Shown: piece after piece, positions 1-60,501 of the stretch
Position numbering within the stretch: position 1 is the stretch's first letter
Layout of the letters: each line of letters begins with the position of its first letter
Assembly: GCA_963930775.1 (NCBI GenBank)
Contig: OZ005692.1
Location: 3,458,135-3,522,134 of the forward strand
Origin: Cliona cf. orientalis
Taxonomy: Eukaryota > Porifera > Demospongiae > Clionaida > Clionaidae
Length of the DNA: 64,000 nt
Reading direction: 5' to 3'
The notes under the pieces: model-generated
Databases searched by the model: none
Seen by the model: only the letters and a program-made list of their open reading frames with translations
What the model was told of the DNA's origin: nothing
Translations under genes and position numbers: made by a program

Positions 1-148
1 CTATACTGAGCCAGTTGTAACATGCAAGAGCGATAATCATCCATTACTAGTATAAAATATTTATGAGTGCATAATAATATGTTCAGAACCTATTCACAGG
101 AAAACATCCTTACACTTCATAATAATTATTATTGTATATTATATGATT

Positions 149-640
149 GTGCCCTCCAAAAATTTTATATGTATCCCTTCAAAAATCTTATATGCACAAG
201 AGAAAGTCCTTAGCTACACAATGTAGTATTGAGATGGCTAGAAGTGCCCATGTGCCCTTAAAAAATCTTACACAAGAGAAAAATCCTTACACATTATTTC
301 CATGCTCAGTGGGTGGGGCTGTGCAGGCCGGGACAGATAGGAGTGCCCATGTGCCCTTAAAAAGTCTTACACAAGAGAAAATTCCTTACACATTATTTCC
401 TTGCTCAGTGGGGCTGTGCAGGCCGGGACAGCTAGCTAGATAGGAGTGCCCATGTACCCTTAAAAAGTCTTACACGAGAGAAGAATCCTTGCATATTAGC
501 TATTTCCATGTTCAGTGGGACTGTGCATGCAGGGACAGATAGGAGTGCCCATGTGCCCTTAAAAAAATCTTACACAAGAGAAAAATCTTTACACATTATT
601 TCCATGTTCAGTGGGACTGTGCAAGGACAGATAGGACAGG
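149..640. repeat. Tandem repeat, about 100-bp unit
   Basis: Four near-identical units start at 241, 341, 444 and 543. Each reads GTGCCCATGTGCCCTTAAAA, then TCTTACACAAGAGAAAAATC, then a CAGTGGG..CTGTGCA..GGGACAG block. A more diverged partial unit precedes them from about 149. Open frames through the array follow from the periodicity and are not taken as genes. Confidence 0.85.
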
Positions 641-643
641 AGA

Positions 644-822
644 AGCGCATAGAAACCACTTTTTCAACAATATCTACCGATTGATCGTGCTTATAGTACG
701 CACAGACGCCTAGAACTCGAGATCTGGCGATTTTCGTGCCGACGACGACAACTACAACAACAACAGACGTACAAACCGATTGCTTTACCCCTTGCGCATG
801 CGCGCGGGGTAAAAATTGTGGA
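644..822 (+). repeat. Dispersed repeat family X, copy 1
   Basis: This copy holds a CTCGAGATCTGGCGATTTT segment, a GACGACGACAACAACAA stretch, and an end of CTTTACCCCTTGCGCATGCG followed by CGGGGTA. Related copies occur at 36690-36841 and 50745-50925. No coding content was seen. The class of element is unknown. Confidence 0.7.
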
Positions 823-1504
823 TGTGGGTACATTGGTAGGAAGCCAAAAGTAGGCCAATTAGTGCACTGAGACTGCTAGTACACTTGTTGAACTTTGCAA
901 GCTCATTGCTCAAAACAGGAGAGTGTGGCAAAGGTTGCCTTCACTCATTAAATTCAAAAGATCAAAGCATATTATGCATACCACAGTGTAATTATAGGTA
1001 CTTAAGTTAGGAAATTAGTGACTATAAAGCACATATTTAGTACGTATGGAAAAAAAAAATTTCGAATTTGAAAAACGCGCACTTTTCTGGTAAAGGTCGT
1101 CAATCGCTCCATATATACACGTTATGAAAATTTGTAAAAATTTAATGCTAATTTCTTACGTTGGATTGGATCATACGTTATATTTGATTAACTATGGTAA
1201 TAATTATTATATAATGCATGCTGTATTACTGTATGGGTCCCGAATGTATATAGCTACGTATAACTATAGCTAATGGCCTATATAGCTAATAATGCATAAT
1301 AATATTATTATTATGGTTTGATATTCAATCACTTGCCACCAAGATAGTACAGCATCACACCAGACATGATAATAATAATAATAATTATTATTGTTGTAAG
1401 GTCATGCAGATCAGACTGAGTGTGTTCAACTATAGCTATAGACTATGTAATTTCCTGAATCATCATCAATATAAATTTATTATAGGCTACTCCCAGTTTA
1501 TGAA
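823..1504. other. AT-rich spacer, nothing recognised
   Basis: The sequence holds short ATT/AAT microsatellite runs and no convincing exon, inverted repeat or RNA gene. It may contain the promoter of the gene that follows. I cannot point to a core promoter. Confidence 0.5.
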
Positions 1505-4500
1505 ATGAGTGAAACAAGTGTCAAGATAAAAGTGCAACACGATAGCAATATACATCAAGGAGTTTGTGTACAAAATTGCCCAAATCAACATGGATCTCAT
1601 CAGCAATCAAAGGTAGCTATAATTACAGCTATTTAGAATAATAATAAATTTGGCAGCTACAGGTCTGATATTAAACTTAATGATTTAATGTGGGCACGAT
1701 GATGATGTAATTAATGCTAGAGGTGGTGTATTTAATGAGTGCATTACTCCACCAAGATCGTTATTGCATCATCCGAGTGCATCACACTAGTTAAATCACA
1801 CCGTGCTATATAAGTGTGCTCTGACCAAAGTGACTTTCAACCAAGCTGATGCGTTGAAACTTGCACGATTGATGGTTCACGTGTTGTAGCGTGTTACAAT
1901 GGCTCCGTGCCACAATGGCTTCGTGCAGCCTGCTGGAATGGCCATAGGGAGGCGCGCGCAACAATGGTTCGTTCATGTATACTCTATATAATGTACATAT
2001 ACGCGGTATGGATGGGAGGGACTGGGGGGTTGGGGATGGGTTGCCAATGGTTAGCAGGGTTAGTCTCTAGGGTTTGTCTATGATAGGGGGGAAATAATGT
2101 TTGGCAGCAGCGACAATAGCGGTGGTGTAGTGGTTGGGGCTCTTAATTGTGTGCGGAATAGAATGTAGTGGGTTCGAACTTCTCGCTTCATGCTTTGATT
2201 TTTTTTCACTTGTCAAAATTTTTAAGTTCTCGCGAGCCATTCTAACATGGAGCCAGTATATAGCATGCTGCACATGCATCTACACTCAAGCACTTGAAAT
2301 TTGCTTAGTGTCTTCATGCAGTGTTCTGACTTGTTTAGACTAAGGACACACAAATTTGAATGCTAGTTTCTCGTCATCTCCCGTGACTGTTTCTACCTAC
2401 CGCATCTGCCTTCATTATTGTGTTTGAAACACCAGCCACATGCACCTCTTTTTTGTTAATTATTTGAGTGGTTCCAGGAAACCACACCCTCAAAATTCCA
2501 TAATTAACTAGAGCTCTCTAGAGCACAAAACCCTCGGCGCGTTGCATGGCATTAGCTGCACAAGCAGGCGATGACAATAAAATGTTATAGTAGCTTCCCT
2601 TTGCCCACTTTCAATGCTGCATGCAGAAAAGGGTCAAGGACCAACTGCATGAGGGCTGGGGGCGAGGCTAATGCGTTGTTCAAGGTATAATGGCTTACAG
2701 CAGCAATAACCTTGATGTGTTGTATCCATTTCCACACTCATGGCAGTCCCTACATGCATCAAGTCAGCTTCCAGCCTCCAGGAGTCCTTGAGGACAATGA
2801 CCATAATATGCAAGCAAATGATCGACTGTCATGCCCACTGAGCTGCTGCCACGGTGCTCCAATCAGTGATGAGTTGTAGGATCTACAAGTATAGCTATAA
2901 CCGTACAGTATAAAGGATCCGTCGAAGTTTGCCAGCGAACGGAAGAAGGCGGTGTCAACGATTATCCAGTACTGCGCATGCACTGAGGATTAGCATAGTA
3001 ATACTTATAGACTGACCGTATATAGCGCATGACACACAATAATATATGTTCTATTTATACGTAGAGGCATACCAGCGGTAGCCTGGAAAAGTCAAGAAAC
3101 TTAGAATCGGCAAATGACGCCAAAACTGGCGAACGAAGCGTTTTCGGCGAAATCCACACAAATCATACGTTTGGCCCGTCATAAGGAACCTTGCAACACC
3201 GAAAAATGGACTCGCAAACGAGGTATGTAGCAGCTAGCGTGGTAACAGACAGACAGACAGACAGACACACAGAACGACTACCGTAACCCTACGGCGCATG
3301 CGCCGAGGGTTAATAATGACTGTCCTCCCGCATAGAAATATAAAAGTGGGTGGACGAGAAACCATACAATAATGTAGCTAGTTTGATTGGACTAACATTT
3401 AACTATAGTCTACATTCAAACTATGCAATATCTATTTAATGCATACTTAGCTATTAGTATTGCAGCAATAATATTATGATTTAATGCATACCGTATAGCC
3501 GGAAATATTGGCGGGCATTAAATTTGGCGGTTGAGCCCCAAATCGCTATTAGAAGAATATTGGTGGATTTAAATTTGGCGGTTCGGTACGGCATCGCCAT
3601 ACGTATATATGCGAGTAGGAAATTTTGGCGGATTTTAATTTGGCGGTTGTAATATATACCGCCAAACCGCCAAATTTAATTCCCCGCCAAATTTTCCGGC
3701 TATACGGTAGTTGCTTTCAATGTATCTGATTGCATGGTTGAAAGTCACGTGACCTGAATATGACTAGTGCCTTTATCATATTGATACTTCAGAGTTGTCC
3801 GAAGCTTCAAGTGACGATTAAAGGGAGTAAGAAGGAAGTCAAGGGAGCTGAAGCAATCTATAACTACCTCACACAGTTGAATACACGAATACGACAGGTT
3901 CTTACAATTGACTCATAATATGTTAAATTAGGTATAGCCTCGCACTCCCAGGCAGTGATTAAAAACATGGGAGTGGCCTGGGGCCGGGAAGAGGCGGCTA
4001 ACTAGCTATAGGTATAGGTGGGGTTGGTAAAAAAGGGTAAAAGTCCGGTCCCTACCGCTGTGATGCATGTGGCCATTGATACATACCTAGCTAGCTATAG
4101 CTAACACCCTGTTGCATGGGATCCAGGTTGGAGTTTGGGTATGAACACCACACTGACCAATTTGAGTGTAGTCTCACGCAGCCAGACTCTTACACCTCGG
4201 GAGGGGGAGGGAGAGAGTCTGGTAAAGTGCTATACATCGAGTTGTTCCAGCGCCTCGTACGAGGTGTGACCAATCAGATTGCATCTTTATGGCATTACAT
4301 AGTTTGCGGTGGCGTATCCGACTATGGACGGACGAGATACTATTGTGCACGCGTGTTTATTTTCCGTTCACAATCGGATATACCACCACAAACCTAAGAT
4401 GCAATCTGATTGGTCGCGCCTCGTACGAGGCGCTGGGATAACTCGATGTATAGCACTTTACCAGACTCTCTCCCTCCCCCTCCCGAGGTGTAAGAGTCTG

Positions 4501-7500
4501 GCTGCGCAAGACTAATTTGAGTGAGTGTCTGAATCAGAGTTAAGCTTTGTAAATCATAACTATGGCAACACTTCAAATTCTTAGACTAGTTTACCACCGC
4601 CACATGCATTAAATTAAACTTATATTAAGCTACACAAAGCATAGCTAGCTGTTATAATATAATTATGTTATGGTGATGATTTTAATGATGATTATACATT
4701 AATTTTCAGGCTGATCATGAACCACCTGTTGTTGTCCTTAAAGTCAATATTCCACTGCTTGCTGGGAGAGTGCCTCCAGGATGGACAGTGAGTCTGGTTG
4801 ACAACCCAGGATTTGGAGAGGCCAAAGAACATGTTGTCCAGTTGGCTGATGCTTCCTTAGTGACTAGTTCTGCCTACATTTACCTCCTTCAGACAGAAAA
4901 TATTGGTGGCACTGAGGCTAGAGATTTCTTTAAGGAACTATCTGCAAAAGACAAAAGTAACAGCTAGCAGCTAACCCATTTTGATTTTTCTTGGTAGCTA
5001 TGTCTTATTTCTATACAGCTTCACTGAGCGATGGTCGGCTAGCAGTAGGTGTCACAAAATTTGATACTATCTATTCAAACAAATCAAGAAGGCGTGGTCG
5101 TAGAGCAGTCCCTACTACTGTTGAAAAGGTCAGGGAAAATTTGGTCACTAGCATAAATGAGGCAACTGATACTGTCATATCTGATGATACTATTATCCCC
5201 TTGTGTGGTGAGTGGGCTATGGCAGCCAGCAGGCTGGCTAGCTGTTTGATCAGTGATCCAACTGATGAGAAACAGGAGAGGTTGGAGGAAGCAGCCCAAG
5301 CCCTTGAGAATTATCCTCATCTCTCTCTGCCAGGAGGTCAAGAACAGAGTCCAAAAGATACTATTATGAGTCTACAGCCTATGGTTTTGATTGATCATTT
5401 AGAGAAAGCAAGTGGAGTAGCTGATCTGAAAGCGAGGTAATGTAATCCACGATAATTGAGTACAAGCCGGAGGCATATACTGTATACTTTCTAATATAGG
5501 CACCAATAAAATATAATTACAGATCATGCAGACGCCTCCAATTACAACCGAAAAATTCATGAGCAGGTCAAAGGGCGCCTAAATTAGGGAGGTGCCTAAA
5601 GGGGTGCAATTAGAATAATTCTGGGAAATTTTGCAAGCGCTAGCTATCGCTAAACGGTAGCTAATATTTAGTGGCGGTGGATATGATAGTGGAGAAAACA
5701 ACAAAAATATGATGTTGTAGAGGTTCATTGCTATGTTCTTCGAATGATAAATGAGTTACTTAGCTTAGCATAGCAAAGATTTTCATCGAAAAATTAGACG
5801 TTTGGGTCTCGTGGACCTTTGTCAGCGATAACATACAATGCACGATGCAATGGCAAGAATGTTGAGCGGAAGTGGGTTATGATGTAAAGGTAATTAACTT
5901 ACTGATAAATGGAATAAAGGAGAAGTTTGAAAACTGGAAAATGAGTAAGTTATTTATGGATGAATCTACATCTTTGTTGAAGTATTGGTGGAAATAGCAA
6001 TTATTAAGCACATTGGCTTTGTCCCAGTTTGCCACATATGAAGAGCCATTGTGGATGAGTGTTGGAATGGCAGTTTCACGATTGGTCAAAATCTGGATAG
6101 CTTTCCAGAAGGCTTTAGAGTCTCAACATCTCAAAGATTAAAACATTCAACTTATTCTTGACAAGCGAATCATTACTGTAACAGTGACTCTGTTTCTCAC
6201 AGCCCTATAATTTTGGAAGATTGCTTGCATTACTTTCCAAGGCAAATTTCTGCGTGATCTCACTATAGATTGTGGAATACATAGACAATTTCCAAAAGTT
6301 TCTTTTTCCACTTTTACCAGCGTCCTCTAGACCCCTAGTCTATAGCATCTAGAAGCTCACAGGCATGGTGATAATCTCCATGGGTGTATCACCAAATCTT
6401 GCGACTCCTGGTTTTGGGAGCAGATTTCCTTTGCCCTACAGAAATAGAGAGATACATGCCAAGGTGATCAGAATTCACTAGAAAAGAAATGGTTGCACTA
6501 CTGAAAACACAGAAAGGCACAGATCAATGAATAGTTAAGTCAATGGCCTTTTCAGAAACGAAATGCGTGAGTTCAGACACAACCTGGCTTAGATTAGATG
6601 AAAAAGCCTGCAACTTTGGCAATAGTGGATGAGAAGTATTCAAAATATCGACATTTAAGTCACCAATAAGAATAGAATTATAATAGCTATAATAAAAATG
6701 TAACTTCTACGAACACAAAACTGTGAGTAAAGTATCAAATATGGAATGAAGTGAACTAGGGGGATGACAAAAGAGTAACCATTTATTCCAGGTCATCCGA
6801 CCCTGAAATAACAAGAGAATGCGAGGAAGTATATGAACATAAATTTAAATGCCTCCACCCTGCCCTGTCAGTTGCGATCATGCACGTCGAACAATATCAA
6901 AGTTATGTAAATTCAGTTCATTATTGAAAGAGTTTCGTCCAACCATGTTTCAGTAATGCAAGTTATGTCAGGGTGATGGACAAGGCAGACAGCAATGAGT
7001 TCATCGAGTTTGGGTAACAGGCTCCTAGCATTATAGTACAGAATGCAGAATAATTAAAGCTGCAGGCTTGAATATTTTATTAGTGGGGTTTGGGCTTGGG
7101 TCTGGCAAAAGGAAGCACGTAACAATTCATTACCTGCATTGAGAAGTCACATTATATTGTTATCTGCTTTATAATATTTAATTTAGAATTAGTGGGAGGT
7201 TGGCCTTCTGGTTCTGGATTCAAATCACTATAGGCTAATAGTGGTTTTCTTGTTTGCAGTTGAACCTGAAACTGTCAAGTTTTTCAATTAAGGACTGTGT
7301 CTTCCCCTCATATCATAAACCACCAAGTTGTTGCATTATTCTCTCCATCTGTCTATATTTGTTTACAGAATTCATTATGTTGTTGGAAATGCTTGTGTGA
7401 AGGTATGGGCCACAAAAATCATTTCTGAGTTCCAAAACTATCTGAAAGCTGGAGAGAATGGAATAGAAGGAAGATGTGCGTATTTAGCAGATGCATCAGC

Positions 7501-50992: not shown

Positions 50993-51259
50993 TTACAGTG
51001 GTCAAGATTTGTTAAAAATACCTTAATTGGATCCATTGAAATTAAACTTTAACAGTTCACCCCGTTTTTGATGAAAAACAATAAGCAGCTGAGAAATAAC
51101 GGATTTCTAATTAAAGCGCACCTTTTTAGGTGTGCATTATTTAGGAAACTAGTGATTAATGGTTTTTTAATCAAAAACGGGGTGGACTGCTAAAGTTTAA
51201 AAGAAATTCTATTGAATTGATCCATTAAAGGAGATTTTTAACTAATTTGACCGCTGTAA
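50993..51259. mobile_element. 267-bp hairpin element with TTACAGTGGTCAA ends
   Basis: TTACAGTGGTCAA and TTGACCGCTGTAA are inverted with one mismatch, and the arms continue through AACTTTAA and CCCGTTTTTGAT for about 75 bp. Centre GCACCTTTTTAGGTGTGC. No coding sequence. Confidence 0.7.
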
Positions 51260-52014
51260 CTACATACTCATAATTTTGATGTCCACTGGCTCAATATACA
51301 AAAAGTACAAGTCACATGACCTCCAAGGTTGGCATGCATGCTTAAATCATTGATATCTTGTTATATCGGCAAATTTATAGTCTGCAGGAGTATACCCGGG
51401 TGAAAAGGACCGCGTTATCTGCTGAATTCTCGCGGATTAACGCGGAATTTGATTGAAATACCGTGCAAATTTCACGCGTTTTGTTCACCGCACACCGTCA
51501 GTTCGCGCCGAAACACGCCCATGCCCGTCATTTTCGCGATTGCACACGCGGTGACACGCGAGCGGTTCAACTATCATGGCTGTTGTTGTAGAAAGGTGAG
51601 AATAACAAACGCTGACGGTCAGCGGCGCGGTTATGAGCGTAGCGACGTGGGCCTAATAAACAAGTGCGGTGTCCATTTTTTAAACGAGACTATACGTTTG
51701 CTTACTCGATCTACGGCGATCGCCGTAGCTACGTGTTTTTGACAGTTTTATAGCCTTCATGAGCGTTAACGTCCATGGACTAGCTCCGAGTGGCACGCTC
51801 TTGAGGTACACAATGCATGCATGGGTTAATACTGGAAGGAGATCCTGAACGTTCTATAGTCAAGTAAGAAGGTAGGTGTGGTTATCAAACTATTTTTAGT
51901 ATAGTAATAATTTTTGTTGTGTACTCAATGTTATCTTATGTCAATGATGCAAGAAACTATAATATTAATGTTAAACTATAATGTTGGCAAAGAAAATGAT
52001 AGTCCAATCATTGA

Positions 52015-54839
52015 TCAGTTTTCAGTGTCACTGTTGTCAGATTCAATGGCATCATCACCTTTCTTCTGGGCCTCCTTGATCTTCTTCCTACATCCCCTAC
52101 ATTTATTGTTGAGACTAGTACGGACGATTTTGTCCCACCGAGTGTCACCTTCAGTCCTACTGCTAACCGGATAATAGTAATTGGTGTGGGCTGCGTAAGT
52201 GAAGAAATGGGCATTACTATTGGGGGGACAATAAAAAATTTAATGATGTCATAATAACTTACCCTTTATAGCTAATAGAAGTTGTTGATCCAATAATTTG
52301 CGCCCTTTAGCTTTCGTGCAGCATGAATCTGCTAGCACCTCCTCCGAAAAAAATGCTGTTAGTAGATTTAGAGCAAACTGTTGTGGTCGACCAACTGGGG
52401 GGCAGCCCACAGCTTGCTGAAATAGTGCTAATCCAGCTTCAGAGGGGAGCCTGACTTTCACCTGTTGCTCTGTGCAGTTAGGATCCCCACAGATGACTTC
52501 CAAAGGATCTGAGTATCAGAACAACATGCAAGCTAATCACTACTAGGTACTAAAGTGCAAACAGTAACTGTTATCCAGAAGTGTATATAATAATATTCTC
52601 CTATCTTTACACGATTAACATTATTAGAGTATGTACATGTACACATGCATGCATATTGCATGTACAACTGCAATACACTACATGACTAGTGTCACTGAAA
52701 CTGCACCAATAATAAGTCTTAATAGTACATAGTTGACATACCAGGAGCTCCGCTGATTTTGCTGGTCTCAAGATCACCATTGCTGTCGTCAAGTGCTGCC
52801 CCACTGCCACAGCTGATCCCACCAACCGGCTTCTCTGCCGCATCAAACTGAACCTAAAATAGAATTATATGTATGTATGTACATTCATAAATAATCCTTT
52901 AATAAAGTAGTGTTACTATACATGTTTATAGGCATAAATAATTTCTTACCTTCTTCACACGCTTCTTCTTCACCTCATTTGTCAGAGCATCCAACTTCTT
53001 GTGCACTTCCAAAAATTGGTACTCTAGCCAAAGCTTCAACTGGCTCAGCTGCATTTGATCCACGCTCCTTCCACTGTAGCTTGACCTGTTCATCCACCTG
53101 TCATTCTATCATCAACCCAATATTAACAACCTGCAATAATATTATATGGAATTCATAAGTAAAAGACTCACCCCATATAAATCATCACTAAAATCCATCA
53201 CATTCGTGACATCACTAAAAGGAGCTCTAGGAGTAGACTGCTTGTGAACTGGTGGTGTAACTTTCGTTGAAGTTGTGGAGAGTTGTTTGGAAGGGTTTAC
53301 TCGCTCTGTATCAGGTGAGTAGGGTGGGTCTACTATGGGAAGCTGTGAGTGGTCCTCCAGTGAGCCTATGTCAGGCTCTGGAAACCTGTCCACTTCTGCT
53401 CCTCGAGTTGTTTGCCCTTTCTCCTGAGTTGATGCCTAATAAAAAATGGTGTTTAAAATAAAGCGAATGAATGATACTGAAGTTACCTTTGACTTCTTGG
53501 TTTGAGCTCCATTGCCCGCAGATAGTTGACGGCTAGGGGGGGTTGTACCAGTTTGGTTGAAAGGGGATGCTCTATCAGATGGTGTGGCAGTGGGAGTCTG
53601 AGAGTCGTCTGGTGAGTCCTCCAAATCAGCTAACAGCTGCTCGGTCACCTTCTCGACTCTTTCAAGAATAGGGTATTTGGCTTGCATTTTCTTTCTAGTT
53701 GAAGCTTGTGAATTTGAAGTCTTTGACTTGCGTTTGGGAGGGTAAACTGAATTCATGTTAGACTCTTTCCTAGTCTTCTTGGCATTCTTTGTAGCTTCTG
53801 TTGCCGCCCTTTTCTTACTGGTTGACGTCTGTGTTAAGCAAAGTATAAACTATTATAAGCCTAAATAGATTTACAGGGTTTATTTTAGGGGCGCCAGGGG
53901 GTGCTTTCACCCCTCTCCCCCTCGGAAATTATTTTATGTAATAACATGGTTGCTCTCTTGGATTTGTATTTGCAATTAATTTTGCTGCTATGTGTTTGGG
54001 TGAAATCCTGAAATAAACCCAGGATGTACATACCTCTGACTGATCCACCAATGGAGCTGATGTCTCAATATCAGGTAACAGTGTACCATCTAGACTACTT
54101 TCATCATCATCATCATCAAGCTCTTCCAATCTCTCTAATAATTCATCCATGTTTTTCTTTGTTCCTAGTGATGGAATAATATTGTATTATTAAGTATAAT
54201 TTGCACATTAAATTTTATAGCCTTGTCCTGTCAATGTAGTATTTGGACCGCCATATATACAGATCCTAGAAACTAACCCTGCTAACCATTTTAATATACC
54301 CGGAACCCAGCCCCTCACCCCTTACTATAATTAATCACAAGCATGGGGTCCATATAATTATTTGTGAAATTTTAATGGCGGAGTGGGGGGGGGGGGGGAT
54401 TAGATATTTTGAAATATTTGGACTGGGGAACAAAAAAGGTGGGGGTCCAAAATTTTCATGACACTGTCCCCAAGGGCCTGGGCATGAGGCATATGTATAA
54501 TCAAACACTTACCACTACAGAGTAGCTTTGCACTGTAAGGCACCATCTTAGCTCCTTCCCGAACACGAACACTGCACATCTTTCCAATTTTCACACCTTG
54601 TCCATCAACACCGGTCACGTTCTTTCGTTGTACAACATTTCGTGGGTTTCCATCTTCATCCCATTGAACCAAACAGTAAGCACCTAGTACAACTAAAACA
54701 AAAGCCTGTCAATTAGCTCAATTTTGTTTAGACATTTAATAAAATTTAATGATTTTGTACGCTTACCACACTCTTCTTCGGCCGCTTTTATTCTTTGCGC
54801 TAGACGCGTCGAGGTGACTTTCAAGCTGGAGTCGTCCAT
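52015..54839 (-). CDS. BEN-domain protein of the CACTA element, 9 exons, 559 aa
   Basis: Exons in coding order: 54767-54839, 54513-54692, 54034-54164, 53487-53828, 53172-53435, 52950-53105, 52742-52853, 52263-52508, 52015-52190. All have GT..AG borders, phases agree, and the total is exactly 1680 nt ending in TGA. The N-terminal part (MDDSSLKVTSTRLAQ.. to about residue 84) includes AYCLVQWDEDGNPRNVV and KMVPYSAKLLCSG, a small domain common in animal BEN proteins. Next come an acidic EELDDDDDESS patch, a long basic and Ser/Thr/Pro-rich linker (likely nuclear signals RKKMQAK, PPKRKSK) and KKKRVKK. The C-terminal BEN domain (about 430-540) reads LNLLTAFFSEEVLADSCC..GRKLLDQQLL and TRWDKIVRTSLNNKCRGC. 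BEN domains bind DNA. I infer a second element protein acting on element ends or chromatin. Confidence 0.85.
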
Positions 54840-55068
54840 TGAGTAGATCTTTAACGTTGGAAGATGAATAGGCTGAAATTGTTTAGCAACGAGATGTACA
54901 CTGGCACAAAGATCTGGCAGCTCGCTATCGCGGTATGATCGATCAATCAGCTGGTAATCAGGTGGCAAAATGTCACGTGCATGCATACGCCACACCTCCA
55001 CGTACGTACATGTATGCACGTTTGTACAGTACTGTCCTGAAGGTGGGAATTTGAAGTGATCGATTATG
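54840..55068. promoter_or_regulatory. Divergent start region between the two CACTA genes
   Basis: Only 229 bp separate the BEN start codon (54839, minus) from the transposase start codon (55069, plus). It must hold both 5' leaders and probably a two-way promoter. It contains TACGTACATG and TGTCACGTGCATGCATACG, which include an E-box-like CACGTG. No TATA box is obvious. A minus-strand open frame that continues up to 55193 overlaps it, but has no ATG before the one chosen except an internal one at about 54988. Confidence 0.55.
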
Positions 55069-58000
55069 ATGGCTGGAATTTCAAGCGACGAAGCAAGCTC
55101 ATCCTTTTTGTGGGCTTCTGATAGTGATTCCGATAGTGATACTGGATTCACGGGTACGTCTATACTATTAAAGCTACTACATTCACCGAGCACTTGATAC
55201 AGTTTCTATGATCATTGCCCATAGGCGTAGAAACCATGGGGGCTCCGGGGGCTGGTGCCCGCTATGTTTTCTGATAGTTACATAGTTAGGCTCAATTTTA
55301 TACACACTGATCATACAGCCCTTGCATATAAATATTATTAATATAGATCTATAGTGCACCCCCCCCCCCCCCCCCCATTACCAAACCATCTTCCTACGTC
55401 CCTGTTGTCTGCATGCTATTCGTAAGTCTCAAGTTTTATTTACCTCCTTACAGCCCTTTCTACATCCGAGAATTCGAGCAGTGATGATGAAAGTGGAAGT
55501 AGTAGTTTATCGGGTAAGAATTATATCATCGATGTGATGCTATTATTATCTATGAGTATGAGTAGGCTTACTAGTTCAAATTTGATAATACACCATCATG
55601 CATGCAGATGATAACGAGTCTGTTGATGAACAACCAATGGAAGATGGCAAGGACGAAGTGGAGGATCGCTTTTATGGGATGAATATTGATGAAACATTGC
55701 TTGAGCCTCTGTATGAAGGTGCCAACTTGTCTGTCCTGGAGAGTTACTTTAAACTTATGCAATTTTCATTACATCATAGCTTGACAAAGCAAGCATTCAG
55801 TGATCTACTAAATGTTGTTTGTCTACACTTGCCAACAAATCCATCTATTTCGGTTTACAAGCTAAAAAAGTTTTTTTTGAGCCTCTTCCATGACATCTCA
55901 TTTTCAAAGCACCACTGCTGTTCATCATGTGATACCTTGCTAGACGACAGCCGGACAAGTACTTGTCCAACACCCGGGTGTAGGGGAGCAGCTATCGAGT
56001 TCTTGTCTGTATCCATTGCAGCACAGCTGAAAAGAAAGCTAGAAGGTATGATACAGTGCTATACTATGGAACATAATACTTTTAGTACATGCATGCATGC
56101 ATGCAATACATGTATGCAAGCATACCAATACTTAAACAAGTCTCAACTGTACATATGCACACACTGGACATAGATCCAGTCACTTGGAAACAACTGCAGC
56201 AGAGATTCAGCAGGGTCTCATGTGGGTTAGAAGATGTATTGGATGGGAGGGAGTACCAGAGGCATTCGGATTTCCTGTCTGAGAAGGCTAACCTGTCAGT
56301 GACGATTAATACCGATGGGACAGATGTATTTCGTTCATCTACTGCCTCCTTGTACCCAATATGGGTGACAATCAATGAGCTCCCACCACTTGTTAGGTTA
56401 GCAGAGTAGCGATTATTAATTTTGATGGTAGTATTTAACTTATGGTTTTCTTATCTAGATTTAACAAGAGGAACATACTCCTTGCTGGATTATGGTTTCA
56501 CCGATCTAAACCACCAATGGCAACCTTCCTGCGCCCTATTATTGAGCAGATGAATAGTCTGGCAGACAGAGGTAAAGATTTTGAATTTTATGTGATACCT
56601 TACAAATATGTAGCAGGACTGCAATTAGGGGGAATGGGCAATTGCCCCCCTCCCCCCTCAACCGTGTAATAGCATGTACGTGTAGACAGGTCCCTATGTT
56701 TTCTAACAGCATGAGCCTACATCTCTTTATCCTCATCTCTGTGTAGGTATGTCCGTGAAGACACCAGAGGGAGTGATGACATCAAGAGTGCGGCTGCTTA
56801 TGTGTTCAGTAGATCTTATTGCCAGAGCACCTATACTGAACATGAAACAGTTCAATGGAAAGTATGGGTGCTGTTACTGTGAGGATGAAGGGCAACCACT
56901 GCCAACAACACATCTTCATCGCACCTGGCCTTACTGTGCCTCGAGCACATCTCGCACCCATGACAGTATCCTTGCTAATGCAAGTGAAGCTGTGAGAAAG
57001 AAGCAGCCTGTAAGCCAAGTCTGACTTTTACGTATTTTTGTTATTTCTAGGGAAATTTCTTAACTTAGGTTATGGGAATTAAGGGAGCCAGTATACTCTC
57101 TTCACATCTGCCGTTTGACATGTGTGCTGGAGTAGTGATAGACATGATGCACTGTGTGTTTCTTGGAGTGATTGGGAAGAGTTTAATGAAGTTTTGGTTT
57201 GGTTCAAGTCATCATGCCAAACCATTCAGCCTTAGAAGAAAGGTATGGTGGATATGTTTCTTTAAAACTGTACTTTACTACTGTATGTATACATGTATAT
57301 AATAGATGTCTCACTGTGATGAGCGGCTGCTGAGTATTCTTGTCCCTCATGACTTTAGCAGAGCGCCGAGGAGTCTGAGTGACCTTGCACACTGGAAAGG
57401 TAATAATATATCGTGTGTTCATACTCCTGAGAGAGTTTGTGTATGCATGTATGTATGCCCATATAGCTGTATACTATGGTATGTGTGTACTGTATGTTTG
57501 TATGTGTGTGTACCCAACATAATATTATTATTATTATCATGTTTTACAGCCTCAGAGTATTGCTCTTGGGTCCTCTACCTCTCTCTCCCTGTCTTGGAAG
57601 GACTCCTTCCAGAGCCGTACTTCACCCATTATTCTCTCCTCGTTGCAGCTATGCACATACTTCTAGGCCAATCACTATCATTTCACTCTTTGCAGATGGC
57701 TGAAAAGTACCTACTTCGTTTTTATGAGATGCTTTCACCTCTCTATGGTAGGTCAAATAATGCGCAGTGTATAATACGAGCACTCATATTATTATACTGT
57801 GATGGGGACTATAATATTATAGCAAGATTCATTCTTTGGTACAGGAGAGGTAGCATGCACTTACAATATGCACTTACTGAAGCACCTGTGCAACTGTGTC
57901 AGGAACTGGGGACCCCTGTGGGGCTACTCATGTTTTCCATTTGAGTCCTATAATGGCTTCCTGAAGCGGTACTTCCATGGGACGAGAGCAATGAATGTAC

Positions 58001-58663
58001 AGGTATAATTTTTATGACTAGTTTTACACTAATAATCAAATCAACATGCATATTGAATCATATTATCATCTTTTTCAGCTTGCATTTTCATTTGTGATGT
58101 CGCAAAACCTACCCAGGGAGAGAGGAGGATCACGGATGTAAGCATCCATCCACTCATTAATTTGCATAACAGTAATATTATTATCGTAATACACGTGCAT
58201 CAATACATAGGTTGAAACTAGCAGAGTGTTCCGTTATTGGCAAGGTGCAGGTGGTTTCATTGGATGACGATATCAAGGATGCTATTGGGACAAATGTGGA
58301 GCAGGCATCAATGTTTATGAAAGTGAAGGTGAACAGTGAAATTTACTACAGCCAGAGATACGATCGTTTAAGATCTCGAAATCTGTATGCTATCAAGAAG
58401 ATGATACAGAGAAGTATGGACTGATCCGGTACTTTCTTAGTATACCTGGACAGGTTGTGGCCGTTGTCGTGCCACTGTTCATCCGTGCACCTCCTCACTA
58501 CCCAAGCCAACTCAACATCCTTAATAAGAGAATAATCCCTGTAGCTTTATCATCCACAGTCTGTGCAGTGCCTATCAAGGCATTAGTTTGTAAATGTGTG
58601 TATGTACATTGTGGTAGTGGTATGTTTATTGTCAGAAAGCCCAACCTGCTTAATCTTAATTAA
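55069..58663 (+). CDS. EnSpm/CACTA transposase, 12 exons, one late frameshift
   Basis: Exons: 55069-55153, 55454-55513, 55608-56045, 56174-56396, 56459-56571, 56747-57009, 57069-57242, 57306-57399, 57550-57747, 57845-58002, 58079-58137, 58211-58663. Each junction is GT..AG and in phase. The acidic N-terminus (ASDSDSDSDTGF) is followed by a Cys pair region (CCSSCDTLL..CPTPGC). The catalytic core matches animal TNP2-like transposases: D242 (INTDGTDVF), D419 (VVIDMMHCVFLG) and E583 (FPFESYNGFLKRYFHGT) are the probable triad, with ELPP, GLWF and YCEDEGQ landmarks. The C-terminal part (KYGLIRYFLSIPGQVVAVVV) is in another frame; the shift lies near 58378. About 770 residues in all. It would excise and insert the element in the nucleus. 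Confidence 0.85.
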
Positions 58664-59225
58664 TTTTTATCTGTGTTACATCATGATTATGTAACATTCA
58701 ATGATAATGTAACATTCAATGATAATATCAGTAGTCATCTATACATACCGAATGTCAATAAAAAGTCACAATACATAATATATAGCAACTTTACTAAGTA
58801 TGTAGGAGAGCTGATCTTCAGGTATACTTCTCGCATCGACGTCGCTGCAGGGCCTCGAAAATGGCGTACAACAGCTACCCAAGCGGCCTGCTCTGTGAAA
58901 ACCATCGAGTTGCTGTCCACCATCACGCGTACGAAGATACACAACATCGACAGCGAGCACGCTATTGTCGGCGATGAGACAAACGATCAGTGATGATCGC
59001 GCTCGCGATCGATGAAAGAGCACGGCAGTGCTAAAGCGAACCACGCGCCTTGCAAGCTGTCAGCTATTTAGCATAGTGTTAATGATATCGCCGCGGTACC
59101 ACGCGTAAAACTCACCGATCCTCGCGCCTGAAGGTAGCCGTCTTGTCGCGGTCAACGGCGAGAAAAGGCGTGGCTAGGCGGGAAACCACGGTTATGCGCG
59201 AATCAACGCAATGACCGCGAAAACG
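58664..59225. other. Right non-coding arm of the CACTA element
   Basis: A duplicated TAACATTCAATGATAATG lies at about 58690-58725, followed by a CpG-rich part (58830-59225) dense in GCGATCG, CGCGG and ACGCG words. These are likely transposase-binding subterminal repeats. Open frames on either strand here lack recognisable domains. Confidence 0.5.
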
Positions 59226-59277
59226 CGCGGTCCTTTTCACCCGGGTAGTATTTTCATTACAAAATTTGCATATTTGA

Positions 59278-60501
59278 GGTACAATTTAATTGCGTGGGCG
59301 TGAGCGTCAGGAATGGCTAATTCAATTAGCGAATCGTGAAGGGGCGTGGCCGAAGAGGCCATACGAGTGCTTTTGGTCGAAGGTGGGCGTGTCCAGAATC
59401 GGCCAGGGATGATTATGCGCGTGTAATTAGCGACCGGAAGTGGCCCATGAAGAAAAGGCCGGTAATTGCCCACTTCAAAGCAAGATCAAAGCATTCTTTC
59501 TTAACTATTAATCGCAACGACAAATTACACACTAAGTAGAAAAAAAAAAAAGAATTTAAATAATTAAATAATTAATGTAATTCCCAGAGGATCTGGGAGC
59601 ACTTGGGGAGATAATTTTTACATGGGCACGCAGAATGGGTCAAAATTAAAAAATTGATGGCGGGAAATTTTGATTCACACTTTAGAATTAGAGATATGGC
59701 ACTTTAAAGTTCTCCATATGTTTGTATAGGAAGCCATGTTTGCCCATAAAAAAAATTACGGGCGCGCGGCGTACGTTGACGACCCTTTACCAAACATTGT
59801 ATATATGAGTGTGTGCGTGTGCGTTAATGCAGGTTTTATTGCTTCCGATTGGGCGTGGCTTCACGGGCCAGTGCTTGGATATCGGGGCCTGGGACTTGGC
59901 CGCGGCGATAGGTGGGCGTGTCCCGGATGCGGTGGTGACCTTTGCACCCGGCCAGGAGGCTTCGGGGGCGTGGCAGGAGGTCAAAGGTGAGGCCACGTCA
60001 GTTAATGAGGCACTGTACGCCGGTGCGATCGAGGGGACTGTACGGCTGGACGGAGGCTGACGATGGTTTGAAGCGAATGTGGTTGCGATGACGTGTTGTT
60101 ACCCCGCCCACACAGGAAATGAGGTGAGCTCTTGTGTGGGCGGTGTGGCAGAACGGTCTCCGAGTGTTTGTGTGTGTTTTGGCCTTGAGGAAGCTGTGTG
60201 TTTTAATTGGGATTGATTGTGGGCTTCCGGTGGACATCCGGTGGCCAGTCGGCACGTGATTGAGAATGATGGTCCTTGAGGCACAGGGTGGTGCTGTTTT
60301 GGTCGTGGCCTGGCCCCTCCCTTCCGGCTCGGCTTCCGGTCCATGGAGGATATTAAATGAACACTTCCGGCTCTAGCAGTCACACCCCTGAGACCTGTGC
60401 AAATAAAAGGGCGTGGTTACACAACATGCACCTCACTAATGACTTTGATGTGGTTTAGGTGTTATATCCCCCACCTCACGCCCACGCAATTTAATGGTAC
60501 C
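59278..60501. mobile_element. TTAA-target inverted-repeat element, copy 2 (reverse orientation)
   Basis: The ends GGTACAATTTAATTGCGTGG and the complement of GGTACCATTAAATTGCGTGG are inverted. TTAA follows at 60502-60505 and TTGA (a probable mutated TTAA) precedes at 59274-59277. It matches 29919-30929 through most of its length in reverse and has an extra block (about 59525-59790) with an AAAAATT-rich core. It inserted 27 bp beyond the CACTA element. Confidence 0.8.

Follow-up and report, generated by a model that had tools for sequence, protein, structure and literature searches.

A BEN-domain gene recurs head-to-head with the transposase of EnSpm-like transposons in the sponge Cliona cf. 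orientalis

Introduction

A stretch of 64,000 nucleotides from the sponge Cliona cf. orientalis (assembly GCA_963930775.1, contig OZ005692.1, forward-strand positions 3,458,135 to 3,522,134; hereafter the window) carries a DNA transposon in which a transposase gene stands head-to-head with a gene encoding a protein with a BEN domain. The locus raises the question of whether this second gene is a working part of the transposon or a neighbour captured by chance, and, if the former, what its product might do. Within this genome, sequence comparison strongly supports the view that the BEN gene belongs to the element as a component and is no captured neighbour, because it recurs inside the matching ends of diverged relatives and because its codons are under purifying selection. 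Genome-wide searches covered the same genome only (217 Mb in 149 contigs); coordinates of element parts refer to the whole window, and the term window element denotes the element at 51395-59245.

Anatomy and class of the window element

The window element is 7,851 bp long and its parts are as follows.

51393-51394, unstranded: TA target-site duplication, left copy (2-bp rule from 18 short copies)
51395-51414, plus strand: left terminal inverted repeat CCCGGGTGAAAAGGACCGCG, 20 bp, perfect match to the right end
51395-51794, unstranded: left CpG-dense subterminal region (CpG observed/expected ratio, o/e, 1.71; 9 CGCG)
52015-52190, minus strand: BEN gene exon 9, stop and second half of the BEN domain
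52263-52508, minus strand: BEN gene exon 8, first half of the BEN domain
52742-52853, minus strand: BEN gene exon 7
52950-53105, minus strand: BEN gene exon 6, with a conserved block at residues 396-432
53172-53435, minus strand: BEN gene exon 5
53487-53828, minus strand: BEN gene exon 4
54034-54164, minus strand: BEN gene exon 3
54513-54692, minus strand: BEN gene exon 2, N-terminal conserved beta-rich domain
54767-54986, minus strand: BEN gene exon 1, with the first ATG in frame (54986)
54987-55065, unstranded: presumed shared promoter region, 79 bp between the two start codons
55066-58424, plus strand: tnp2-type DDE transposase gene, 12 exons, 693 codons, C-terminal end uncertain
55066-55153, 55454-55513, 55608-56045, 56174-56396, 56459-56571, 56747-57009, plus strand: transposase exons 1-6
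57069-57242, 57306-57399, 57550-57747, 57845-58002, 58079-58137, 58211-58424, plus strand: transposase exons 7-12
58846-59245, unstranded: right CpG-dense subterminal region (CpG o/e 1.51; 12 CGCG)
59226-59245, minus strand: right terminal inverted repeat, partner of the left 20-bp end
59246-59247, unstranded: TA target-site duplication, right copy (2-bp rule from 18 short copies)

The inverted ends of the original prediction are confirmed as a perfect 20-bp pair (51395-51414 and 59226-59245), which with the flanking TA comes to 22 nt and is the longest 100% pair among the 25 matches listed. With up to three mismatches, the genome holds the end sequence at 119 + 120 = 239 places; a reversed control gave 4 + 0. 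Among 18 short copies fetched from these 239 end matches, the dinucleotide flanking CCCGGG is the same on both sides in 16 (the misses are L073 and L074) and differs from copy to copy (TG, AC, TA, AA, CT, AG, CA), and the 3 bp beyond it agree on both sides in none; the 730-bp copy L046, for example, is flanked by TA at either end, with AAC/AGC further out. The duplication is therefore 2 bp, and TA for the window element. The 3-bp GTA duplication originally proposed is thus rejected, and the presence of GTA on either side is most likely a coincidence. Short copies with the window element's ends (L058-L075 and elsewhere) are mostly of about 390 bp and extremely CpG-rich, with one end CCCGGGTGAAAAGGACC and the other CCCGGGAGAAAAGGAACGCG or similar.

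The terminal sequence is CCCGGGTG.. in the window element, CCCGTGTG.. in three relatives described below (L054, L055 and L077), and CCCTAT.. in a fourth, the C11 element. Since its ends are CCCGGG and its duplication is 2 bp, the window element is EnSpm-like (CMC/CMCT) and lies outside canonical CACTA; of the CACTA label first given to it, the part concerning a tnp2-type transposase stands, and the CACTA ends and 3-bp duplication do not.

The two genes were modelled by eye and homology, and they are indeed divergent and spliced, with 12 exons on the plus strand and nine on the minus strand. The expectation of a spliced TNP2-like DDE transposase was borne out by a match of the 12-exon frame to Pfam Transposase_21 (E 5e-9, 36.1 bits, cut-off 28.6), which the transposase of the C11 relative matches at E 1.1e-13. 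D243, D330, C349/C352, H560/H564 and E584 are identical between the window and C11 transposases, the catalytic D and E residues being assigned by eye. A frameshift in the C-terminal tail of the window transposase relative to C11, suspected by eye, is not claimed: tblastn gave no match to the tail in another frame. Viral contigs were tried as sources of transposase relatives, and of 45 pattern matches none was confirmed.

The nine BEN exons join in phase, as had been predicted, provided that exon 6 starts at 53105. The predicted C-terminal BEN domain is present; the predicted length of 559 residues holds only from the second methionine, and the protein is 608 amino acids long from the first in-frame ATG (54986). 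In the whole protein the domain scores 21.8 bits, below the Pfam BEN cut-off of 23.2, and the C-terminal 140 amino acids alone score 24.5 bits, above it. Against a profile built from 30 other BEN loci only, the window protein gives E 1.9e-9 (32.9 bits), where the best of 500 shuffles reached 4.6 bits. The N-terminal beta-rich domain is predicted with a mean pLDDT of 85.4 in the L055 relative, and a Foldseek search of the PDB returned no confident fold match (best E 0.43), on which account a provisional SH3-like label was dropped. In L055 this N-terminal domain is present twice, in tandem (L055 3400-3654 and 3764-3949).

Copies and diverged relatives in the same genome

A second copy (copy 2), at C1:26,763,352, is 90-96% identical to the window element over element positions 3-5863. 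A further transposase exon nearby, at C1:26,749,935-26,750,144, suggests that the remainder of this copy sits beyond an insert. Copy 2 keeps both BEN-domain exons, but 13 of its BEN codons have gaps, its BEN exon 4 holds an insertion of 8 bp, and one stop lies within the first three transposase exons. A partly deleted copy at C1:31.94 Mb still holds a BEN exon.

Between the window element and copy 2, exons are 96-99% and introns 89-97% identical, and of the changes in the BEN codons 19 are synonymous and 25 nonsynonymous (dN/dS 0.37; Fisher P 0.0015, computed with rounded site numbers). The BEN genes of L055 and L087 differ by 12 synonymous and 3 nonsynonymous changes (dN/dS 0.07, P 2e-6, with one stop codon, which may be intronic, set aside); those of L054 and L077 differ by 2 changes only and are too similar for a selection test. 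Judged by these codon comparisons, the BEN gene is under purifying selection.

A genome search with the window transposase gave 104 matches, mostly single exons. Loci were surveyed if some piece of their transposase reached 39% identity and their upstream stretch had been sampled or held a Pfam-visible BEN domain (n = 17); about 12 further related transposase loci, and others at 26-30% identity, lie outside this survey. A partner gene stands upstream of the transposase in 14 of the 17 loci. In 11 of them the BEN domain itself is present: the window, C1:26.76, C1:3.93 (L054), C1:7.93 (L055), C10:9.05 (L077), C1:7.12 (L087), C11:3.11 (L053), C6:4.60, C1:24.26, C6:0.067 (L056/L091) and C1:18.45 (L097). 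In the other three, C1:26.06 (L093), C6:4.95 (L094) and C12:7.97 (L092), an exon for the partner's N-terminal domain lies upstream on the opposite strand, the BEN part being either outside the fetched slices or not found there. The check proposed with the original prediction, whether other copies of the element lack the BEN gene, thus gave a result in its favour in this genome.

Both genes lie within defined ends in five elements of four subfamilies, which are, besides the window element, L054 (6,241 bp, flanked by TA/TA), L055 with L076 (6,688 bp, GG/GG), L077 with L082 (6,208 bp, AG/AG) and the C11 element (6,850 bp, ends CCCTAT, CA/CA), of which a C6 copy, flanked by TA/TA, shows 99.5-99.9% identity over the two flanks that were compared. 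The transposases of L054, L055 and L077 are 44-63% identical to that of the window, exon by exon, and head-to-head with a BEN gene. In these three and in L087 (for which the BEN part only was available) the BEN gene is about 50% identical to the window's in conserved exons; exon 8 is 49-51% identical to these four relatives, and the N-terminal domain of exon 2 is 45-50% identical to relatives. The joined BEN exon pieces of L055 and L054 score 16.4 and 13.7 bits, under the Pfam cut-off, and these genes were therefore identified through their identity to the window BEN. The C11 transposase is about 40% identical to that of the window, and its BEN domain is recognised by Pfam (24.6 bits) and was missed by tblastn with the window BEN protein. 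A second BEN-like exon (L054 7244-7483, E 0.0023) lies outside the L054 element, beyond its right end.

Three candidate pairs were not counted. At L036 the CCCGGG end points away from the BEN gene, and at L018 such an end is some 7 kb off. At L033 a BEN gene is accompanied by a same-strand tnp2-like frame that has no Transposase_21 match, and the locus was left out because its copies L022, L023 and L027 stop matching before that frame.

Composition of the element ends

The composition of the ends is not random. Over the terminal 400 bp the CpG o/e is 1.4-1.8 in the window element, L054, L055 and L077, against 0.44-0.59 in the interiors of the same four elements (0.44 in the window element) and 0.64 in positions 1-51000 of the window; in the 18 short copies it is 1.55-1.97. 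Along the 64 kb, 12 of 1272 sliding 400-bp windows reach a CpG o/e of 1.4 with a GC content of 0.48, and all 12 overlap the two element ends; at eight other loci, some of which hold element ends, 2 of 313 do so. The tetranucleotide CGCG occurs 9 + 12 times in the terminal 400-bp regions of the window element and twice in its 7,051-bp interior. Between successive CGCG sites, 24 of 52 intervals come close to one, two or three helical turns, where 12.5 would be expected (P 2e-4), in a post hoc test in which overlapping sites were collapsed and the elements are related to one another.

The C11 element has CpG-poor ends (o/e 0.12 and 0.00) packed with another motif. TCTTG/CAAGA occurs 21 times in its first 420 bp and 26 times in its last 735 bp, a total of 47 in about 1,155 bp; the interior of 5,694 bp holds 13, with the regions delimited post hoc. 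On the right, some of the excess belongs to a tandem repeat of about 90 bp that carries the motif (about C11:3113673-3114338).

Two other repeats lie close to the window element. An inverted repeat just beyond its left end (51042-51200; 37-nt arms, 92% complementary, 85 nt apart) is perhaps another small element. On the other side, an open frame at 59998-60372 (SRKCSFNILHGPEAEPEGRG..), near-identical to one at L088 411-944, belongs to an unrelated repeat adjoining the element.

BEN genes beside Tc1/mariner transposases

A Pfam search found BEN domains at 35 places in the genome. In a survey of the neighbours of 30 of these loci, 1.5 kb on each side, 18 had a Tc1-like transposase match, 1 had a tnp2-like frame and 11 had neither; many of the loci are copies of each other. 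The Tc1 queries were drawn from five of these BEN loci, which gives five self matches, all five confirmed by Pfam DDE_3; the same queries gave no match in 46 control pieces of 3.2 kb. Thirteen of the 18 pairs are tail-to-tail, and L015, L013, L024, L025, L028, L029 and L032 show a BEN gene in this arrangement with a Tc1/mariner-like transposase frame.

One such pair has defined boundaries, L015 (with L080/L081, C3:3661900-3671000), a 4,390-bp element with 33-bp inverted ends that open with TACAGT, TA on each side and both genes inside. Its copy L013, in which L015's right end but not its left end was found, matches DDE_3 at E 4.3e-14, and a matching transposase frame is present in L015. By its DDE_3 transposase, TA duplication and inverted ends, the L015 element fits the Tc1/mariner superfamily. 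Its ends are likewise CpG-rich (1.04 and 1.60, against 0.34 inside). For Tc1-type BEN genes dN/dS is about 0.34 in L013/L016 (P 0.006) and L013/L017 (P 9e-13), and not significant in L013/L031 (0.51) and L024/L035 (0.65), nor in two comparisons of Tc1-type transposases (0.46 and 0.37, P 0.12 each). In a weak tree resting on some 65 residues of the short BEN domain, the BEN domains of the window-transposase lineage cluster (support 0.84) apart from the Tc1-associated ones, and the latter split over more than one group. To judge from the sequences, BEN genes seem to be an accessory that recurs among transposons. There are further multi-copy BEN families (L009-L012; L019-L021; L022/L023/L027/L033), with copies mostly 88-99% identical, and a weak same-strand match to a Tc1-like N-terminus is present in L010-L012.

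Comparison with known systems

Plant CACTA elements, EnSpm in the narrow sense, have CACTA or CACTG termini and a 3-bp target duplication, and carry arrays of subterminal repeats to which a second protein (TnpA beside TnpD) binds. The window element resembles them in combining a tnp2-type DDE transposase, a second protein with a DNA-binding domain and inverted ends. Subterminal arrays are clear in the C11 cousin with its dense TCTTG/CAAGA; the ends of the window element are dense in CpG and CGCG. It differs from plant CACTA in its CCCGGG ends and 2-bp duplication, and in that its second protein is not TnpA but a BEN protein encoded on the opposite strand. For En/Spm, the products of tnpA and tnpD are both required, according to a title cited in PMC4158355.

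With the CMCT clade the window element shares the D, D and E residues, the second D being separated from E by a stretch with C(2)C and H(3-4)H (all identical in window and C11), and a duplication, here and in the relatives of 2 bp, within the range of 2-5 bp stated for the clade in PMC12730594. Its termini are CCC..GGG where those of the clade are usually CA..TG, which is compatible with membership since the same text gives CA..TG "in most cases"; the placement is by features, not phylogeny.

The closest precedent found for an accessory gene of this kind is that of the TET/JBP genes on fungal transposons, which are described in PMC12730594 as carried by many unrelated transposon lineages and passed between them, their enzymes being thought to shield the elements from silencing. 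The likeness lies in one accessory gene family on unrelated transposon lineages, and the passing of BEN genes between lineages is no more than hinted at by the sequences; unlike TET/JBP, BEN is a DNA-binding domain and no enzyme. The word BEN does not occur in the main text of that paper, and no description of a transposon-encoded BEN gene was found among the open-licence papers listed, as judged by titles and the starts of abstracts. The window protein shares its BEN domain with BANP, BEND3 and NACC1, and a profile of 14 BEN domains from this genome, the window's included, matches BEND3 (7v9g, E 1e-10) and BANP (7yug, E 1.5e-7). It differs from these proteins in being transposon-encoded and in its N-terminal beta-rich domain, for which no confident fold match was found.

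Role of the BEN protein

The reading we prefer, and hold to be somewhat more probable than its negation, is that of a two-gene, EnSpm-like cut-and-paste transposon in which the BEN protein is a dedicated, TnpA-like accessory that binds the ends. The transposase would cut and paste the element, and the divergently transcribed BEN protein would bind dense sites just within both ends, CGCG/CpG-rich in the window family, so as to mark and assemble them as TnpA does in plants; it would probably also keep the ends unmethylated or open, or control the shared promoter. Such a role is favoured by the make-up of the ends, dense in CpG/CGCG here and in TCTTG/CAAGA in the C11 cousin, and the recurrence of the pair within matching ends and the selection on the BEN codons speak for the reading as a whole. 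BANP and BEND3 bind unmethylated CpG/CGCG DNA, BANP with two BEN domains head-to-head on a single CGCG palindrome, and NACC1 binds CATG motifs, according to passages of PMC11472053. The window BEN protein is a plausible end-binder by analogy, since it is encoded between CGCG-dense ends and CGCG is the type of site bound by BANP and BEND3; on the end-binding reading the C11 cousin, with its other end arrays, would therefore have a BEN protein of other specificity.

Several observations weigh against this reading. The CGCG count at the ends of the window element (21) shows no excess over first-order shuffles (mean 13.9, maximum 25), so that CpG density is the primary fact for this element; in favour of the reading, terminal counts exceed all 200 such shuffles in L055 (26, maximum 21) and L077 (31, maximum 24) and equal the largest in L054 (31), although the counts in these relatives include overlapping sites within CGCGCG runs. 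No exact 7- to 10-mer repeat rises above shuffles in the window element's ends. No partner was found in the fetched slices of three of the 17 surveyed loci, C1:3.41 (L088), C6:5.99 (L095) and C1:3.378 (L089, L096), slices that cover part of the upstream stretch and contain other repeats. Most tnp2 transposases in the genome have no Pfam-visible BEN neighbour, since only 3 of the 35 places with BEN have one of the 88 tnp2 places at a distance of up to 5 kb (0.25 expected by chance, maximum 3 in 2000 random placements; the three are copies of one family), in a screen that misses BEN genes split by introns, the window's own included. Finally, BEN genes also accompany Tc1/mariner transposases. The members of that superfamily are not known to require more than their transposase, and for this reason the role of the BEN protein is perhaps more general than end assembly.

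An alternative which we consider unlikely, though it deserves to be taken seriously, is that the BEN protein is chiefly an anti-silencing or chromatin factor, which would recognise unmethylated CpG islands (the element ends and the BEN gene's own promoter) and shield the element from host methylation or heterochromatin with no need to contact a synaptic complex. BEN genes found with two unrelated transposase superfamilies recall TET/JBP as described for fungi in PMC12730594, and the CpG-rich ends of the four elements and 18 short copies, set against the 0.64 of window positions 1-51000, as well as those of the bounded Tc1-BEN element, are what it would lead one to expect. It fits poorly with the C11 cousin, whose BEN gene lies between CpG-poor ends packed with TCTTG/CAAGA, an arrangement that resembles sequence-specific end-binding.

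It is improbable that the BEN protein only controls transcription, as a self-limiting repressor at the divergent promoter with no role at the ends: the start codons are just 79 bp apart, and animal BEN proteins are mostly described, in abstracts that include that of PMC11472053, as regulators of transcription and chromatin, but the enrichment in CpG and CGCG is terminal, and the interior is poor in both. Least credible of all, and within this genome close to refuted on the sequence comparisons, is that a host BEN gene was captured by chance, or that the transposon inserted next to one, the pairing being without function for the element. The many BEN genes in the genome, at 35 Pfam places, would make such a capture possible, but the partner found in 14 of 17 loci, its position within defined ends in five elements of four subfamilies and dN/dS values below 1 all speak against it.

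Significance

If the end-binding reading is right, an EnSpm-like element gains a candidate for the second, end-binding protein known from plant CACTA, and end recognition becomes directly testable because human BEN relatives have solved DNA complexes. The occurrence of the BEN family beside Tc1/mariner transposases as well suggests that BEN proteins may serve transposons generally. A wider proposal, put forward tentatively as a possibility short of an even chance, is that BEN proteins recur as an exchangeable accessory among DNA transposons of unrelated kinds, EnSpm-like and Tc1/mariner, where they would read unmethylated CpG at the ends and aid both transposition and escape from silencing; they would then be an animal-type counterpart of fungal TET/JBP and a possible source of host BANP and BEND3. 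The link between BEN proteins and transposons thus bears on the origin of the CpG-island readers of animals.

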